A stretch of 33,710 bases of DNA from Chloroflexota bacterium (lineage in GTDB: Bacteria > Chloroflexota > Dormibacteria > Dormibacterales > Dormibacteraceae), in the NCBI GenBank assembly GCA_005880855.1, contig VBGM01000023.1, positions 12,613 through 46,322 of the forward strand, in the 5' to 3' direction. Within the stretch, counting starts at the first letter, position 1, and every line of letters begins with the position of its first letter. The notes beneath the pieces were generated by a model that was not told where the DNA came from, ran no database searches, and saw only the letters and a list, made by a program, of their open reading frames with translations. Of this stretch, positions 4,422 through 30,577 are shown one piece after another. The translations under genes and the position numbers were made by a program.

Positions 4422-4480
4422 ACCGCTATATCGTAGGCGCCGTGCCCGAATACGGCCCTCAGCTCGATCTCGACCGCGCG

Positions 4481-17430: not shown

Positions 17431-18168
17431 CTAGATTTCCAGGACCATGCCGTCGCGCGCAGCCTTGACCTCGGTCCCCAGCTTCTGGGTCAGGTTGGCG
17501 GCCAGCTCCCAGGGGTGCGCCCGCCAGACGGTCATGCCGAAGTGCGTGAGGATGGCGAGGCGCGGCTTGGCCTCGCGGATGATGCGTTCGGCGTCGTCGA
17601 GGCAGAGGTGGGGAAGCCCTGATCGGCACTGCATGAGGACCAGGTGGATGATCATCACCTCGGCTTTGTGCTGTTCCGCGATGCCGTCGTAGTACTCCGA
17701 ATCGGTCACCCAACCGAGCCGGTCGCCGAAGCGAAAGCCGAACGTCTCGACCTGGTGCCGGTGCAGCGGGCTGGTGGCGAAGGAGAGGCCGTTGACCGTG
17801 TATGTCGTCACCGGCTGCAAACGCACGACCTCCTCGGGAAAGTGGCGCAGGTAGCGCAGGACCACCGGATCGTCGTCGAGCGCATCGGCGGGGCAGAAGA
17901 GGCGACCGCGGTGGCGGAAGCCGCCGTCGGTCATCGCCTCGACCATCACGTTGACGTCGCCGCAGTGGTCGAGGTGTCGGTGGCTGATGACGATGGCGTC
18001 GAGCTTGGTGAGGTCGACCTTGCGCTTGGCGTACTGGACTACCGCGCCGGGCCCGGGGTCGAGGCTCAAGCGGGCGCCCCCCTCCTCTATGTAAAGACCT
18101 CCGGATGCCGCGATCTGCTTCGCGACCATGAAGCGGGCACCCGCCGTGCCCATGAAAGTGACCTTCAT
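17431..18168 (-). CDS. Metallo-beta-lactamase-fold hydrolase (RNase Z-like)
   Basis: A 245-residue MBL-fold hydrolase. MKVTFMGTAGARF at the N-terminus, VISHRHLDHCGDVN with HxHxDH at 63-68, LGWVTDSEYYDGIAE with the bridging Asp, and ILTHFGMTVW with the last His give a complete two-metal site. The overall pattern is close to RNase Z/ElaC-like and phosphodiesterase-like proteins, but the RNase Z exosite is not evident. The substrate could be a nucleic acid or a small phosphodiester. The start ATG (18168) overlaps the ligase stop as ATGA; the longer open frame upstream lies over the ligase gene and is rejected. Coupling to the ligase hints at nucleic-acid repair, but this is inference. Confidence 0.82.
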   Translation of the reverse strand: MKVTFMGTAGARFMVAKQIAASGGLYIEEGGARLSLDPGPGAVVQYAKRKVDLTKLDAIVISHRHLDHCGDVNVMVEAMTDGGFRHRGRLFCPADALDDDPVVLRYLRHFPEEVVRLQPVTTYTVNGLSFATSPLHRHQVETFGFRFGDRLGWVTDSEYYDGIAEQHKAEVMIIHLVLMQCRSGLPHLCLDDAERIIREAKPRLAILTHFGMTVWRAHPWELAANLTQKLGTEVKAARDGMVLEI

Positions 18169-19820
18169 GTTTCGGCAACCTGACTCAGGGACGTTTCGGT
18201 CTTCTTGCCGAAATAGCGTTCGTACAGCTCCGACACGCGGTTGAGAGTGTCGATCTCGTCCACCGGCTTGTCGTCGCGGATGCGCACGATGCGCGGAAAG
18301 CGCAGGGCGTAGCCGCTCGCGTGACGTCCGGAGTGTTGGATGGAGTCGAAAGCCACCTCGAGCACGACCTCGGGCTTCACGATGCGCGCCCAGCCTCGAT
18401 CCTCGAGCGTGATGGCGAGAAATCGCCTGGTCATGTCGGCGATCTCTGCATCCGTCAGCCCTGTGTAAGCCTTGCCCACGTTGACGAGGCGGCTGCTCGC
18501 GGTGTCCTTGACGGCGAAGGTGTAGTCGGACAGCACCCCCTTTCGCTTGCCGTGCCCCCACTCGACCGCGGTGACGACGACGTCAAGGGTCGCCAGCGGG
18601 CGCTTGAGCTTCAACCACGCGAGGCCGCGCCGCCCTGGCGTGTAGGGGCTCTTCGGGTCCTTCACCATCAATCCTTCGTTACCGCGCTCACGCGTGTCGA
18701 CGAATATGCGGTCCAGGTCATCCGGGCTGGTGGCCTCCTCCAGCCGCGCGAGCAAGAAAGGATGATCGAGGCCCAGCCCTTCGAGGAGACGGCGGCGCTC
18801 TTCCAGCGGTTCATCGAGGAGCGGGCGGCCGTCCAGGTAGAGCAGGTCGAAGATGACGAGCACGACCGGCACCTCGTGGCGCATCTGGTCCGTGACGATC
18901 TTGCGTCCGAGCCGGCGCTGGAGCTCGAAGAACCGCAGCACCCGGCCATCTCGGTGCGCCAGCACCTCGCCGTCGAAGAGAACGTCGTGGCCGATGCGCG
19001 GTGCGCTCTCGGCAAGCTCCGGAAACGCGGCGGTCGTCTCCTTGAGGTCGCGCGAGAAGAGCTCGACCCGCCCCTCCGCGTGGTGGAGCTGGCAGCGGAC
19101 GCCGTCGTACTTCTCCTCGGTCCACACCTTCTCGGCGCCCATGCGCTCGAATGCGTCGGCAGCCGTTTCCACAGGGCTCGCGAGCATGAATCGGACCGGC
19201 TGGAAGAGGGTGACCGCGCTGCTTTCGATCTCGCCGCGCTTCACGCGCACCGCGGTCTCGCCGATGTCCCCGGTGATGAGGTGGACGCGCTTGACCTGGG
19301 TCACGGGAACACCGAACGCCTCGGCGATCGCCGCCTCGACCAGGCCCTCCGACAAGCCGATGCGCATCTCGGTGGAGATGATCTTGACCACGAAGCGCGC
19401 CGCCTCCGGGTGCAAACGCCGAAGGAGCGCTTCCAGGGGCGCCGCCTTGGCCGCACCGCGGGCGCCGCGAATCGCCTCGAGCGTAGCCTCGACCTCCTCC
19501 AGCGGCACGTCCTCGTTTCCGGTGCTGCCCTCCAGCGCCTCGCCCGCCCAGTCGCCCAGGTCGGAGTGCTTGCGGAAGATGCCCTGGAGCTCGTCGTCAT
19601 CACGGCGTGAGACGGATCCAATCGCTTTGCTCAACGTCGACCAGCCAAGGCCGAGCGTTCTCCGCTTGGACGGTCCGAACGGCCTGCCGCTCATGAAAAT
19701 CGCGGCCCTCCGAAGATCGTCATCGTCCAGCGACCGAAAGTACGCCGCGAGCAGGCGCGTTTTCTCGAGGGTTGCGGACGTGCCGCCCACCGCAGCTCCC
19801 GTGCGCGCGAAATCGAGCAT
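18165..19820 (-). CDS. ATP-dependent DNA ligase (archaeal-type, 551 aa)
   Basis: A 551-residue ATP-dependent DNA ligase. The N-terminal DNA-binding domain runs to about residue 205 (KIISTEMRIGLSEGLVEAAI). The nucleotidyltransferase domain carries motif I EEKYDGVR with the adenylated Lys at 237, DGEVLAH (motif III), IFDLLYLDGRPL, EGLMVKDPKSPY (motif IV) and WLKLKRP (motif V). The C-terminal OB-fold ends with VLEVAFDSIQHSGRHASGYALRFPRIVRIRDDK (here only quoted in part by position, residues about 490-520). The length and order match the archaeal-type ligases found in some bacteria besides NAD-dependent LigA, suited to repair rather than replication. ATG 19820 is chosen. First gene of a four-gene coupled operon, divergent from two small cysteine proteins. 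Confidence 0.93.
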   Translation of the reverse strand: MLDFARTGAAVGGTSATLEKTRLLAAYFRSLDDDDLRRAAIFMSGRPFGPSKRRTLGLGWSTLSKAIGSVSRRDDDELQGIFRKHSDLGDWAGEALEGSTGNEDVPLEEVEATLEAIRGARGAAKAAPLEALLRRLHPEAARFVVKIISTEMRIGLSEGLVEAAIAEAFGVPVTQVKRVHLITGDIGETAVRVKRGEIESSAVTLFQPVRFMLASPVETAADAFERMGAEKVWTEEKYDGVRCQLHHAEGRVELFSRDLKETTAAFPELAESAPRIGHDVLFDGEVLAHRDGRVLRFFELQRRLGRKIVTDQMRHEVPVVLVIFDLLYLDGRPLLDEPLEERRRLLEGLGLDHPFLLARLEEATSPDDLDRIFVDTRERGNEGLMVKDPKSPYTPGRRGLAWLKLKRPLATLDVVVTAVEWGHGKRKGVLSDYTFAVKDTASSRLVNVGKAYTGLTDAEIADMTRRFLAITLEDRGWARIVKPEVVLEVAFDSIQHSGRHASGYALRFPRIVRIRDDKPVDEIDTLNRVSELYERYFGKKTETSLSQVAET

Positions 19821-19850
19821 GTCTGGGTACGGTGGCCTATCGTAAGTCGA

Positions 19851-20063
19851 GTGCGTCGGTGCCCCTATCTGGAGGAGCTCGTCAAGGAACGGCGAATGCT
19901 GCTGCGTGTCTACCGTTTCGACTGCCATGTCGATCATCTGTCGAAGCGCAAGTACGCGCTGAGAGACAGCCCGCCGATCTGCGTCCGCAACTTCGAAGAT
20001 TGCCCCCTCTACCAGTCCGAGAAGCGGCGCGAAGATTCCACCATCACGAGGTACACCGATTGA
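19851..20063 (+). CDS. Small four-cysteine protein, possible metal or Fe-S binder
   Basis: A 70-residue protein of no family I can name. It has exactly four cysteines: RCPYLE (Cys 4), FDCHVDH (Cys 25, with His 26 and His 29), PPICVRN (Cys 44) and DCPLY (Cys 51). The Cys-Pro dipeptides at both ends and a Cys-X6-Cys pair suggest a zinc or iron-sulfur site. The rest is charged, with no signal peptide. GTG start at 19851, 30 bp from the divergent ligase start. Its stop overlaps the TTG start of the next small gene by four bases (TTGA), which supports it as a real translated gene. Confidence 0.65.
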   Translation: MRRCPYLEELVKERRMLLRVYRFDCHVDHLSKRKYALRDSPPICVRNFEDCPLYQSEKRREDSTITRYTD

Positions 20064-20452
20064 GCGCGCTCGATGCCCGGCAGCGCGGCAGTAGCTTGAG
20101 CTGCTCCGTCTGCGGCGCGCCTGCGCTCCCGCTCGACGGGATGTGCGTCTTCTGCCACGCACCACTGGATAAAGAGGACGAGCCCAACGAGCTGCTGGAC
20201 TACCTGGTCGAAAGAATCCCAACCGCGAAAGTGAAACGCGGCCAGTGGAATCGCGGCCCTATCAGCGAGCTGACCGTCGATGTTGGCGGTCGCACCTACC
20301 GAGCCCGGTGGGAGAAGGAGAACCTGGAGTTTCAGCCCCCCGTGATGCTCACGGCGTGGCTTGACCTGCTGCTGAGCGGGCTCAGCGATGCGGCCGGCGC
20401 CGACGCCGACCTGCGCCGGGCAGTCCTCCGCTCCGGCTGGGCGCTCCGCTAA
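20060..20452 (+). CDS. Zinc-ribbon protein of unknown function, 130 aa
   Basis: A 130-residue protein with an N-terminal zinc ribbon: CSVCG at about residues 15-19 and CVFC about 13 residues later, a C-X2-C...C-X2-C knuckle pair. An acidic linker (DKEDEPNELLDYLVERIP) follows. The second half is a small beta-rich domain (VKRGQWNRGPISELTVDVGG, RARWEKENLEFQPP) ending in a helical tail. No catalytic motif is seen. It may be an adaptor for protein or nucleic acid. TTG start at 20060 overlaps the preceding small gene; its TAA (20450-20452) overlaps the convergent exonuclease stop by four bases. Placement between the ligase and exonuclease genes suggests a role in the same process, by context only. 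Confidence 0.65.
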   Translation: MSALDARQRGSSLSCSVCGAPALPLDGMCVFCHAPLDKEDEPNELLDYLVERIPTAKVKRGQWNRGPISELTVDVGGRTYRARWEKENLEFQPPVMLTAWLDLLLSGLSDAAGADADLRRAVLRSGWALR

Positions 20453-21414
20453 AGAGCCAAAGCTAGCTGCTCAGTCGCTTCCAGAGCGGAGGCGCGCACG
20501 CCGCGCTTGCGAAGGTGACGCGCGAAGTCCTCGGTGTAGCCATGCACCGTGTAAACCTGGTCGGCGCCTGACAGCTCGACGACCTCCATCAGCTCGTCGA
20601 AGTCGCAGTGGTCCGAGAGATCGAAGGTCGCGTCGGCGCCGAACAGGCGTGCGAACTCCGCGTCCTTGGCCCAGCCGGAAACCAGCGCGGTCCGGTAACG
20701 ACCGAGGCGTCGCACCTCGTCCTTGCCCGCGGGGGGCGCGATCACGACTCGACCGGGTGGCGTCTCGCCGTTGAGCTCGATCCAATCCGGCAGAGGGCTG
20801 CCGGCGCTCTCGTACGAGCGCGCGCAGGGGACGCACCGGCTTTCGAGCGCGAACGAGAAGCCATATGGGGCGAGCGCGAGCATCACCTCCTCGGTCTTGC
20901 CGAGGGCGTGACACAGGAGCACCGGCGTCACGCGGCTGTCGAGCGCGAGACGGCACCAGCGCGCGATCGATTCCACGGTTGAGTCGGGGTCGCCAAACCG
21001 GAAGTGCGGCCGTCCGTATGTGCTCTCCATGACGAGCACGTGCGCCGGGGGCACTCGGGTGACGTGGCCGCCGGGCCGGCGCAGTTTGATGTCGCCCGTG
21101 TACAGGAGGCTGATGCCGTCGTGCTCGAACCGCAGCTGCGCGGAGCCGAGCATGTGGCCCGCGGAGTGCAGCGTCACCATGGCCGGCCCCCGGCGCATCG
21201 GCTCGTCGTAGCCGAGCATCCGCCAGCCGCGCGGCCGGCGCGCTTCCGGGATGAGCGCGAGCGTCTGTGGCGTGAGCAGCGCCTCCTTGTGGCGTCGCGC
21301 GTGGTCGGTGTGCGCGTGCGAGATGAATGCGAACGAGCGCACCACCAGCGGGTCCAGCCACAGGCTGTGCTCGGGCAGCGAGACTCCGTGGTCCCAGACG
21401 ACCTCGCGCGTCAC
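20449..21414 (-). CDS. MBL-fold exonuclease, DNA-ligase-associated type
   Basis: A 321-residue metallo-beta-lactamase/beta-CASP-like nuclease resembling the family annotated as putative exonuclease, DNA ligase-associated (SNM1/CPSF relatives). It has WLDPLVVRSFAFISHAHTDH with HxHxDH at 33-38, HSAGHMLGSAQLRFEHDG, LLYTGDIKLR, VLVMESTYGRPHF and LLCHALGKTEEVM. Near the C-terminus are LSDHCDFDELMEVVELSGAD and VYTVHGYTEDFARHLRKRG. All metal ligands are in place. A DNA substrate is expected from the family and from the ATP-dependent ligase 0.6 kb away. GTG start at 21414 overlaps the nnrE stop as GTGA. It is third in an operon with a SufR-like regulator and nnrE. The helicase and phosphoesterase often found with this family are absent. 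Confidence 0.85.
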   Translation of the reverse strand: MTREVVWDHGVSLPEHSLWLDPLVVRSFAFISHAHTDHARRHKEALLTPQTLALIPEARRPRGWRMLGYDEPMRRGPAMVTLHSAGHMLGSAQLRFEHDGISLLYTGDIKLRRPGGHVTRVPPAHVLVMESTYGRPHFRFGDPDSTVESIARWCRLALDSRVTPVLLCHALGKTEEVMLALAPYGFSFALESRCVPCARSYESAGSPLPDWIELNGETPPGRVVIAPPAGKDEVRRLGRYRTALVSGWAKDAEFARLFGADATFDLSDHCDFDELMEVVELSGADQVYTVHGYTEDFARHLRKRGVRASALEATEQLALAL

Positions 21415-27806: not shown

Positions 27807-28679
27807 GTGGCGCGCGGGCGGAGTGGGGAAGGAGATAGCAGCCTGAGTTTCAACCCGGGGACGACTCTAGGTGCTTATCTGATCGTCGAACAGATAGGAC
27901 GCGGAGGCATGGCTACCGTCTATAAGGCATACGAGGAGCCCCTCACCCGCCATGTTGCAATCAAGGTCCTGCCCGAGTTTTTCGCCGAGGACAGGGACTA
28001 TCGCGTTCGCTTCCAGGTCGAGGCAGTCGCGGTCGCCAAGCTGCGCCACAACAACATCCTCACCGTGTTCGCCTACGGAGAGGAGGAGGGCGTCCCTTAC
28101 ATCGTTTGTGAATTCGTAGACGGTGGGACGCTGGCCGAGAGGCTCGACGGCGCGATGCCCATCGAAGACACCATCCAGGTGCTCACACCCGTAGCTTCGG
28201 CCCTCGACTATGCACACTCTCAGGGCGTGCTGCACCGCGACGTCAAGCCGTCGAACATCATGCTGCTGAGCGACGGCACGCCCGTGCTCACCGATTTTGG
28301 CCTGGCCAAGGTTCTTGGCGGGGACACGATCACGGTCACTGGCCAGGTGCTGGGTACCCCGGAATACATGGCGCCGGAGCTGGTCTCGGGCGACGGAGCA
28401 GGGCCGGCGGCCGACCGGTATTCGCTCGGGGTAGTCGCCTACCAGATGCTCACGGGTCGGGTCCCGTTCCAGGGCAACACGCCTGGGGCAACCTTGATGG
28501 CCCAGATACACGATCCCCTTCCTCCCGCCCGCGATCTCAATCCTGGGCTGAGCGTTGATGTTGCCGTCGTCCTTGACAGGGCCCTCTCCAAGGCGCCCGC
28601 CGAGCGGTACGAAAGTGCCGGCGATTTCGTCGCTGCGCTCGCTTCGGCGGGTCTGCCGGCGGTGCTGGAGGCTGGGTAG
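27807..28679 (+). CDS. Soluble Ser/Thr protein kinase (PknB-like catalytic domain only)
   Basis: A 290-residue eukaryotic-like Ser/Thr kinase with a complete active site: glycine loop GRGGMATV (31-38), ATP-anchoring Lys 53 in AIKVL, helix-C Glu 72, HRDVKPSN from 143, DFG at 163-165 and GTPEYMAPE. The protein ends right after the kinase domain: no transmembrane helix, PASTA repeats or other sensor domain, unlike typical PknB. It must be cytoplasmic and use partners for input. GTG start at 27807. It is followed after 60 bp by a baeRF gene on the same strand, a possible substrate. AT-rich leader sequence precedes it. Confidence 0.92.
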   Translation: MARGRSGEGDSSLSFNPGTTLGAYLIVEQIGRGGMATVYKAYEEPLTRHVAIKVLPEFFAEDRDYRVRFQVEAVAVAKLRHNNILTVFAYGEEEGVPYIVCEFVDGGTLAERLDGAMPIEDTIQVLTPVASALDYAHSQGVLHRDVKPSNIMLLSDGTPVLTDFGLAKVLGGDTITVTGQVLGTPEYMAPELVSGDGAGPAADRYSLGVVAYQMLTGRVPFQGNTPGATLMAQIHDPLPPARDLNPGLSVDVAVVLDRALSKAPAERYESAGDFVAALASAGLPAVLEAG

Positions 28680-28739
28680 CACTCAGCACCGCACGGGTTC
28701 TACTCGCACAGCGGCGCGGTTATGTGCGAAGGTCGATGG

Positions 28740-29522
28740 GTGACTCGCCCTCATCCAACCGAGATCCCGTACCTGCTGGCTTTCTTTCCCAGCCTGCGTA
28801 CGGCTTCCGATCGCACCTTGAGCATCTATTTCAAGATCCGATCTGAGGCGTATGACGGGAAGTTCTACGACATGGAGCTCAAACGGGTCGTCGAGCAACA
28901 CATGCACAAGTTGAGCGAGGAAGACCGCCGGGTGGTCGACCGCGAAATTCCTCGGGTCAAGGCTCAGCTTGCGGTCGTCCGCCCGGTTGCATGTCCGTCC
29001 ATGGCGGCGTTCGCGGACGAACCCAAGGGTCTCTTGCGGTTGATACGACTTCCCGAAGAGACCGAGGATCGGCTGGAGGTTGATCCGCCGCTGCTGGCAC
29101 CGCTCGAACTCATGCTGAGAAAATACCCGCCCTCATTGATCGTCGTGGTCGACAAAGAGCAAGCCCAGACGTTTGCGTCGATCCTCGATGAGATGATCCC
29201 GCAGCATCACATCGACGGTGCAACCGTCAAACACATTAGGTCTGGCGGCAACAAGAATCCGAGTCTCCAGCGGAAGGAAGAGAACCGGGTCAAGTCCAAC
29301 ATGGCCGCGGTCGTTCGTCTCGTCGATCGCGAGGTGAGCGCGGTGTCTTACAAGCGCCTCTACGTCGCGGGTCCCGACGAGGCTGTGGCGGAGCTCGAAA
29401 GGCTGCTGCCGCCTTCGCTGAAGAAGATCATCGCGGGCCGGCTCTCGGCCTCGCTCGACCTCGGCGTGGGTGAGCTGGGGGTGCACCTGCGCGCGCAGCT
29501 GGCGACGTCGCCGGCGGATTAG
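28740..29522 (+). CDS. Bacterial eRF1-like (baeRF) family protein
   Basis: A 260-residue protein with the layout of the baeRF families, bacterial relatives of eRF1/Vms1 proposed to release peptides from stalled ribosomes. It begins with a segment ending TLSIYF. The central domain has KYPPSLIVVVDKEQAQTFAS, the region of the catalytic loop (HIRSGGNKNPSLQRKEENR at about 165-183) and RLYVAGPDEAVAELERLLP. The loop has Gly-Gly and a Gln but not the usual GxSQ order, so catalytic ability is uncertain. GTG 28740 follows GAAGG at a good distance; an ATG at 28722 would add six residues. Its stop overlaps the convergent recombinase by four bases. The family call rests on my reading of motifs. Confidence 0.65.
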   Translation: MTRPHPTEIPYLLAFFPSLRTASDRTLSIYFKIRSEAYDGKFYDMELKRVVEQHMHKLSEEDRRVVDREIPRVKAQLAVVRPVACPSMAAFADEPKGLLRLIRLPEETEDRLEVDPPLLAPLELMLRKYPPSLIVVVDKEQAQTFASILDEMIPQHHIDGATVKHIRSGGNKNPSLQRKEENRVKSNMAAVVRLVDREVSAVSYKRLYVAGPDEAVAELERLLPPSLKKIIAGRLSASLDLGVGELGVHLRAQLATSPAD

Positions 29523-30451
29523 CTACCAGCGGTCTTCTTGCCGTCCAGGAACTCCTGGTAGCGGCGATAGGCCTCCTGCTTGCGACTGTCGACGATTTTC
29601 GTGTACCCCTGCAGTGTGTTCAGGTTGGCGTGGCCCAGGACCTCCTGCACCAGGCGCACGTCGCCGCCTGTGACCTCGAGCAAGGTGGTCGCCGTGGTAT
29701 GTCGCGCTACGTGAGGCGACTTGAACGACCAGGCGCCGAGCTCTTTGCGCAGGCGCCGGACGATGAACCTCGAGCCCGCACCTGTGAGCCGGCGCCCACG
29801 ATCGTCCTGTACCGAGCGGTCGAAGTTCACGAACAGGGCCATGCACGCATCTTCGCGCGCGCCCAGGTAGTCCTCGAGCGCCGCGCGCGCATCCGTGGTG
29901 AGGTAAACAGCGCGCTGCTTCGAGCCCTTGCCGGTCACGATCAATCGATTGCCGCTTCGCGGAAAGTCGGTACGGTCGAGCGCGAGCGCCTCTGAGATGC
30001 GGCAGCCGGTGCTGATCAGGAACTGGACAAGGGCGCGGTCGCGTTTCTCTGAAATTGTCGAGCTCGGGAGCGCGGCCAGCAGGCGCGCCAGCTCATCGGG
30101 GTCGATCGGCTTCGGGAGGCGCTGCTCGAGCTTGGGCAGAGTGATGCCATTGGAGAGGTCGTGCTCCATCATTCCCTCCCTCGCGAGCCAGCGTAGGCAC
30201 GAGCGGATCGCTACCAGAGCGCGCGCCCGCGACGCGGGTCCCTTGAGGCGCCCGGCGAGATGGCGCTGGTATGCACGCAGGTCTTCGTGGCGCAGGTCCG
30301 CGGTGGCCAACGAGTGGCCGTTGGTGGCGAGGAACGACAGGAGCTTACGGAGCTCGGACTGATACGCGCGAACCGTGTTCGGGCTGCGGTTCGCCTCGAG
30401 CTGAAGCCAGCCGATGTATTCAGACGTGGCGGCCTGCAGGTCGTGGGGCAT
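29519..30451 (-). CDS. Tyrosine recombinase, XerC/XerD-like
   Basis: A 310-residue tyrosine recombinase. The N-terminal SAM-like core-binding domain (YIGWLQLEANRSPNTVRAYQ) precedes a catalytic domain with Arg 151 (STGCRISEAL), Lys 175 (VTGKGSKQR), His 247-X2-Arg 250 (SPHVARHTTAT), His 274 (LGHANLNT) and the nucleophile Tyr 283 (GYTKI). Size and motifs match chromosomal XerC/XerD, which resolve dimers at dif, better than phage integrases. No dif site or island boundary is recognised nearby, so a role in a mobile element is not excluded. ATG 30451 is chosen; a GTG at 30478 would add nine residues. Divergent from a lipoprotein gene. Confidence 0.88.
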   Translation of the reverse strand: MPHDLQAATSEYIGWLQLEANRSPNTVRAYQSELRKLLSFLATNGHSLATADLRHEDLRAYQRHLAGRLKGPASRARALVAIRSCLRWLAREGMMEHDLSNGITLPKLEQRLPKPIDPDELARLLAALPSSTISEKRDRALVQFLISTGCRISEALALDRTDFPRSGNRLIVTGKGSKQRAVYLTTDARAALEDYLGAREDACMALFVNFDRSVQDDRGRRLTGAGSRFIVRRLRKELGAWSFKSPHVARHTTATTLLEVTGGDVRLVQEVLGHANLNTLQGYTKIVDSRKQEAYRRYQEFLDGKKTAGS

Positions 30452-30577
30452 ATCGAGGCCGTTTGCATGTTGCCACACTCGATCCGACGTGGGGCGCTTG
30501 TTGCGTGCTCATGCGGCGCCAAACGATCTTCTTTTAGATGGGATGCCGTATCGAGCTCGTCCCGTAGAGTAGGCCGC

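Follow-up and report, generated by a model that had tools for sequence, protein, structure and literature searches.

A diverged LigB-type ligase and beta-CASP exonuclease beside two orphan, probably metal-binding small proteins in the Dormibacteraceae

Do five neighboring genes in an uncultured soil bacterium of the Chloroflexota (candidate phylum Dormiibacterota) encode one minimal DNA end-processing system, or a repair pair of a known kind with two small orphan genes between its members? The locus occupies positions 17,431-21,414 of the window, by which is meant the whole 33,710-nt stretch analyzed from contig VBGM01000023.1 (GCA_005880855.1; Dormibacteraceae, Chloroflexota). A sequence-only reading had proposed that a ligase, two MBL nuclease-like enzymes and two small metal-binding proteins work together here as a single system. 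The five genes, for a ligase, an MBL hydrolase, a four-cysteine (four-Cys) protein, a zinc-ribbon protein and an exonuclease, are present where that reading placed them, with their ends refined through translations and family searches. The comparisons that follow cover mainly one bacterial class, represented by 110 genomes from families f1 (that of the host genome) to f4.

The ligase gene lies on the minus strand at 18,165-19,820 and encodes a 551-aa ATP-dependent DNA ligase of the LigB/archaeal type; its start is set at the ATG at 19,820, the mechanical open reading frame having begun at 20,222. The N, M and C domains (PF04675, PF01068 and PF04679) all score above the Pfam cut-off, motif I (EEKYDG) is present in the translation, and the PDB matches include 3gde (1e-95), 4eq5 and 2cfm, which are archaeal ligases. 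Against the NCBIfam model of the cisplatin-response ligase (TIGR04120) the protein scores 324.6 bits, short of the cut-off of 400. Another ligase, about 40% identical, is encoded elsewhere in the genome of one f1 genus, g3. In a separate case, genome G091 (loci L093 and L094) carries two different ligase and zinc-ribbon copies at two contig ends, only one of them with a four-Cys gene, possibly through tandem duplication or a mixture of strains.

The idea that the archaeal-type ligase replaces the NAD-dependent LigA was considered and rejected. LigA was not found in the host MAG (G000), nor in three other genomes of its genus (G102, G105 and G106), and it is present in 98 of the 110 class genomes, including two of that same genus (G103 and G104). 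Because of this wide occurrence, its absence from the host MAG is likely a matter of incomplete assembly, true loss being the less likely cause.

Behind the ligase on the minus strand (17,431-18,168) is the gene for a small MBL-fold hydrolase with an HRHLDH motif, which overlaps the ligase stop by 4 nt. The protein belongs to no Pfam or NCBIfam family. Its phmmer matches in the PDB are 6kns (8e-9) and 1zkp (2e-6), both YhfI-type hydrolases, and it is nearest to the YhfI/PhnP-like small hydrolases (6kns, 1zkp and 3py5), which it resembles in size, in the HxHxDH motif and in sequence, and from which it differs in sitting behind a DNA ligase. Close copies are confined to f1, matches elsewhere in the class being weak and distant.

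The other MBL protein is encoded on the minus strand at 20,449-21,414, from a GTG start. It contains an RMMBL domain and scores 189.9 bits against TIGR04122, below the cut-off of 325 (Pfam and NCBIfam), and inspection of its translation finds the motifs HAHTDH, GHMLGS, TGD, ESTYG, SDHCDF and VHGY intact, with both the HxHxDH signature and the beta-CASP features present. These features mark it as a beta-CASP-type enzyme related to, but diverged from, the ligase-associated exonuclease. The earlier description of two MBL nuclease-like enzymes is thus apt for this protein, whereas its counterpart behind the ligase is better described as a YhfI/PhnP-like small hydrolase.

Within the class, the exonuclease is present in f1, in f4 and in one f2 genome (G010), two further f2 genomes yielding partial, weak matches only. 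In G010 it directly precedes the ligase and is co-directional with it; in f4, the genomes compared have the two genes on separate contigs. A ligase homolog adjoins the exonuclease in 1 of 19 loci of the same-scoring group from other families of the phylum, and lies within 1.5 kb in 8 of 12 bona fide TIGR04122 loci, both counts having been made with the host genome's ligase as query, so that distant ligases may be missed. Elsewhere in the phylum, this exonuclease clade mostly stands alone. Such solitude, along with the identity of its best solved relatives, the RNases CPSF73 and TTHA0252, would suit an RNA-processing beta-CASP enzyme that happens to lie near a general spare ligase and other unrelated genes. 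That possibility is highly doubtful: no solved structure of the TIGR04122 family surfaced in the PDB comparison, leaving RNases as the sole comparison available, while the best named family of the protein is the ligase-associated exonuclease and its adjacency to a ligase recurs in G010. The intact catalytic motifs and the family assignments bear out the earlier pairing of a ligase with an exonuclease of the ligase-associated type, and the arrangement in G010 and the frequency of ligases at TIGR04122 loci also speak for a repair pair.

A comparable pair is found in the bacterial gene cluster of LigB, Lhr helicase, MPE and MBL exonuclease (Ejaz & Shuman, 2018, as cited in PMC10140301), an operon that has been described but whose biological role is not known (PMC10140301). 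Both arrangements include a LigB-type ligase with an N-terminal DNA-binding domain and, close by, an RMMBL exonuclease of the same superfamily. The present locus differs in the apparent absence of helicase and phosphoesterase genes, in that its ligase and exonuclease do not form one operon but are separated by two genes on the opposite strand, and in that both enzymes fall below the NCBIfam cut-offs. Neither an Lhr-Core helicase nor an MPE/PdeM phosphoesterase was found among the window genes scanned, a part of the window's ORFs, and to that extent the earlier remark that these partners are absent is borne out; an Lhr-family helicase is represented elsewhere in the host genome, as an Lhr-like ORF on another contig that scores 441 bits against a cut-off of 850. 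Nuclease-LigB fusions outside the four-gene configuration have been reported from Opitutus terrae and from Dry Valley metagenomes (PMC10140301). These, too, join a nuclease to a ligase, and the Dry Valley loci likewise do without the helicase/phosphoesterase configuration, the difference being that here nuclease and ligase are encoded by separate genes, between which two small ones lie.

The first of these small genes (19,851-20,063, plus strand, GTG start) encodes the 70-aa four-Cys protein, and the second (20,060-20,452, plus strand, TTG start), which overlaps the stop of the first by 4 nt, encodes the 130-aa zinc-ribbon protein with its C-terminal alpha/beta domain. Because differences among 18-20 genomes concentrate at third codon positions, exceeding those at first and second positions at least about 2-fold in both ORFs, the two are judged to be genuine genes under purifying selection. 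The four-Cys protein follows the motif CPYLE..DCHVD..PPxC..CxLY..ED..RYxD, its alignment displaying invariant Cys, His and Asp residues and conserved CPYLE, DCHVD, PP-C, C, E and R positions. With a mean identity of 80% (18-20 genomes), it is better conserved than the ligase, the exonuclease or the hydrolase. It has no match in Pfam, NCBIfam, PADLOC, PHROGs or the PDB, and its AF2 model is poor (pLDDT 63), too poor for a fold search; its invariant residues suggest that it is probably a small metal-binding protein, of the Zn or Fe-S kind.

The zinc-ribbon protein, in which the CxxC...CxFC pattern is invariant, is present in 39 of the 110 class genomes, all of them in f1. No family in Pfam, NCBIfam, PADLOC or PHROGs accounts for it, and its AF2 model, although of fair confidence (pLDDT 83), retrieved no PDB match with E < 1 in a fold search. 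The two proteins represent orphan families new to the databases and, in keeping with the sequence-only reading, have conserved cysteines of the metal-binding type. A defense system was considered for the locus and rejected, there being no PADLOC match.

How much does the arrangement of the five genes say about their function? Within f1, the order ligase, four-Cys, zinc ribbon, exonuclease and NAD(P)H-hydrate epimerase is kept in essentially all loci, and the co-residence of the same five genes in nearly all f1 genomes, together with a promoter common to the ligase and four-Cys genes, would favor a single minimal system for processing DNA ends, in which the small proteins are the new components. 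As a control, however, the stretch from a carboxyltransferase gene (2.8 kb) to an integrase gene (29.5-30.5 kb) was found to keep its gene order even in distant genera of f1, as a syntenic block with scattered losses and insertions that includes the clpP, PEPCK and carboxyltransferase genes. Since most of the surrounding ~30 kb is equally syntenic, adjacency of the five genes within f1 is weak evidence of function. Further along the window (27,807-30,478), a Ser/Thr-type protein kinase, a baeRF release-factor-like protein and a Xer/phage-type integrase are encoded in a row.

Genus g3 departs from the common f1 arrangement. Its locus keeps the four-Cys, exonuclease and hydrolase genes and is missing this ligase and the zinc ribbon. 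The two missing genes would have flanked the four-Cys gene on either side, and their joint absence hints at a tie between ligase and zinc ribbon. The zinc-ribbon position in g3, between the four-Cys and exonuclease genes, is occupied by an M55 D-aminopeptidase in L085 (2202-3040) and by a serpin-like ORF in L084; an M55 peptidase gene follows the four-Cys gene in some genera.

Outside f1 the five-gene neighborhood is not kept. The four-Cys protein is found in 78 of the 110 class genomes, 37 of which belong to f2 and f4, and at none of 18 four-Cys loci from these two families is a ligase, exonuclease, hydrolase or zinc-ribbon gene nearby (within the 5-13 kb read). In an f2 representative the gene comes after a response regulator and between thiolase and MetH genes, and its neighbors in an f4 representative are a patatin gene and an FAD oxidoreductase gene, one on each side. 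At f4 loci (such as L174, L181 and L193) a different conserved block, approximately GTGTTAGTCTTGTAGTATCAC, is located 10-15 nt before the start and is probably another promoter for the four-Cys gene. Beyond the class, no convincing member of the family was found in 400 phylum genomes, and matches in a scan of 84,980 species genomes fall almost throughout in MAGs titled Chloroflexi or Dormiibacterota; the closest proteins include those from loci of Candidatus Dormiibacter inghamiae and D. spiritus, and more distant loci include those of Candidatus Aeolococcus and Amunia. The proposed tie of the small proteins to the ligase and exonuclease is largely contradicted for the four-Cys protein by its f2 and f4 loci, and window-wide synteny explains the f1 adjacency on which a five-part system was based. 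With the four-Cys gene standing apart from the other four in f2 and f4, a g3 locus without this ligase and the zinc ribbon, and an exonuclease clade that mostly lacks a ligase neighbor, the evidence does not support a single five-part minimal repair system, which is possible but seems quite unlikely.

One specific link appears to hold, namely a conserved symmetric promoter-like element common to the ligase and four-Cys genes, whose starts are 17-58 nt apart in f1. The element, TATCGTA (19,838-19,844), presents a -10-like TATCGT on the plus strand and TACGAT on the minus strand. Of the 40 proper upstream regions from f1, a parsing artifact having been set aside from an initial 41, 38 keep its core, in most cases 6-7 nt before the four-Cys start, and in 15 of 38 regions TACGATA on the other strand stands 7 nt ahead of the ligase start; as background, TATCGTA occurs on the same strand in 8 of 3814 60-nt tiles. 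TATCGTA can be read as a pair of overlapping -10 hexamers belonging to a predicted promoter that is bidirectional and near-leaderless. Prokaryotes are known to have pseudo-symmetric bidirectional promoters (PMC12825309), and the present element is like them in placing one pseudo-symmetric -10 region between divergent genes; it differs in being predicted near-leaderless on both strands and in its conservation over a bacterial family, and is known from sequence alone.

In the host genome, TATCGTA occurs 5-10 nt before a start codon at four places, all of them between divergent gene pairs: carboxyltransferase/LysR, DUF1028-like/nitroreductase-like, corrinoid protein/IclR-type regulator, and ligase/four-Cys, the names of the second and third pairs being readings of their sequences. 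The copy at 4,429-4,435 of the window lies between an acyl-CoA carboxyltransferase gene (start 4,421, minus strand) and a LysR gene (start 4,442, plus strand), 7 nt and 6 nt from the respective starts. The other two are on other contigs of the host genome, at about 1501 in L266 and about 1509 in L267, one of them belonging to the pair of IclR-type regulator and B12-binding corrinoid protein. An SOS-like operator was rejected, the four divergent pairs having no repair theme in common across the genome. Because it also lies between unrelated divergent pairs, the element looks more like a promoter motif of general use than an operator for repair genes.

Conceivably, the shared promoter could mean that the LigB ligase has a regulator or accessory that senses metal or redox state and is encoded divergently from it, namely the four-Cys protein, possibly joined by the zinc ribbon. 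Consistent with this, two of the three other TATCGTA pairs hold a regulator (LysR or IclR), and co-occurrence with this ligase is near-perfect, 71 of the 110 genomes having both genes, 7 the four-Cys gene only, none the ligase only and 32 neither. On a LigA tree, however, the four-Cys trait changes only twice, so that significance cannot be claimed for the co-occurrence and it was rejected as proof of linkage. With no DNA-binding fold recognized in a protein whose AF2 model is this poor, and with the four-Cys gene not beside the ligase in f2 and f4, such a regulator is unlikely. It is likewise rather unlikely that the four-Cys protein is a new class-restricted metalloprotein that assists or regulates the LigB-type ligase in a metal- or redox-dependent way, with the two genes co-expressed through the symmetric promoter and the zinc ribbon serving as a family-specific partner.

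Overall, the genes are real, the repair pair is of a known kind and the two orphan families are new, with no good evidence for a five-part system. The explanation that seems fairly probable is a diverged LigB/exonuclease repair pair, apparently without helicase or phosphoesterase, accompanied by two probable metalloproteins of orphan families that are linked to it through transcription at the most. Weighing against this explanation are the near-exceptionless co-occurrence of four-Cys gene and ligase, which would be expected too of a trans-acting ligase accessory, and the absence in g3 of both the ligase and the zinc ribbon around the four-Cys gene. If the explanation is correct, the locus would correspond to the end-trimming and sealing half of the bacterial LigB/Exo/Lhr/MPE cluster, set within a long conserved chromosomal block. 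The exonuclease would trim damaged DNA ends and the ligase would seal the break or nick with no dedicated helicase, the MBL hydrolase being a putative small phosphodiesterase-like enzyme encoded beside the ligase and on its strand. The four-Cys protein, which most genomes of the class encode and which has a probable Zn or Fe-S site, would act in trans. In f1, its gene and the zinc-ribbon gene behind it would be fired from the symmetric promoter of the ligase, and because one such promoter would fire on both sides, the ligase and the small genes may be co-expressed or may compete for RNA polymerase.

These comparisons carry the caution that, where a whole region is syntenic, a gene order shared inside a single bacterial family says little about whether the genes form a system. 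For the organisms themselves, they point to a helicase-free LigB/exonuclease pair that has been kept across an uncultured soil lineage, and to the four-Cys protein as a strongly conserved, probably metal-binding orphan family extending over most genomes of the class.
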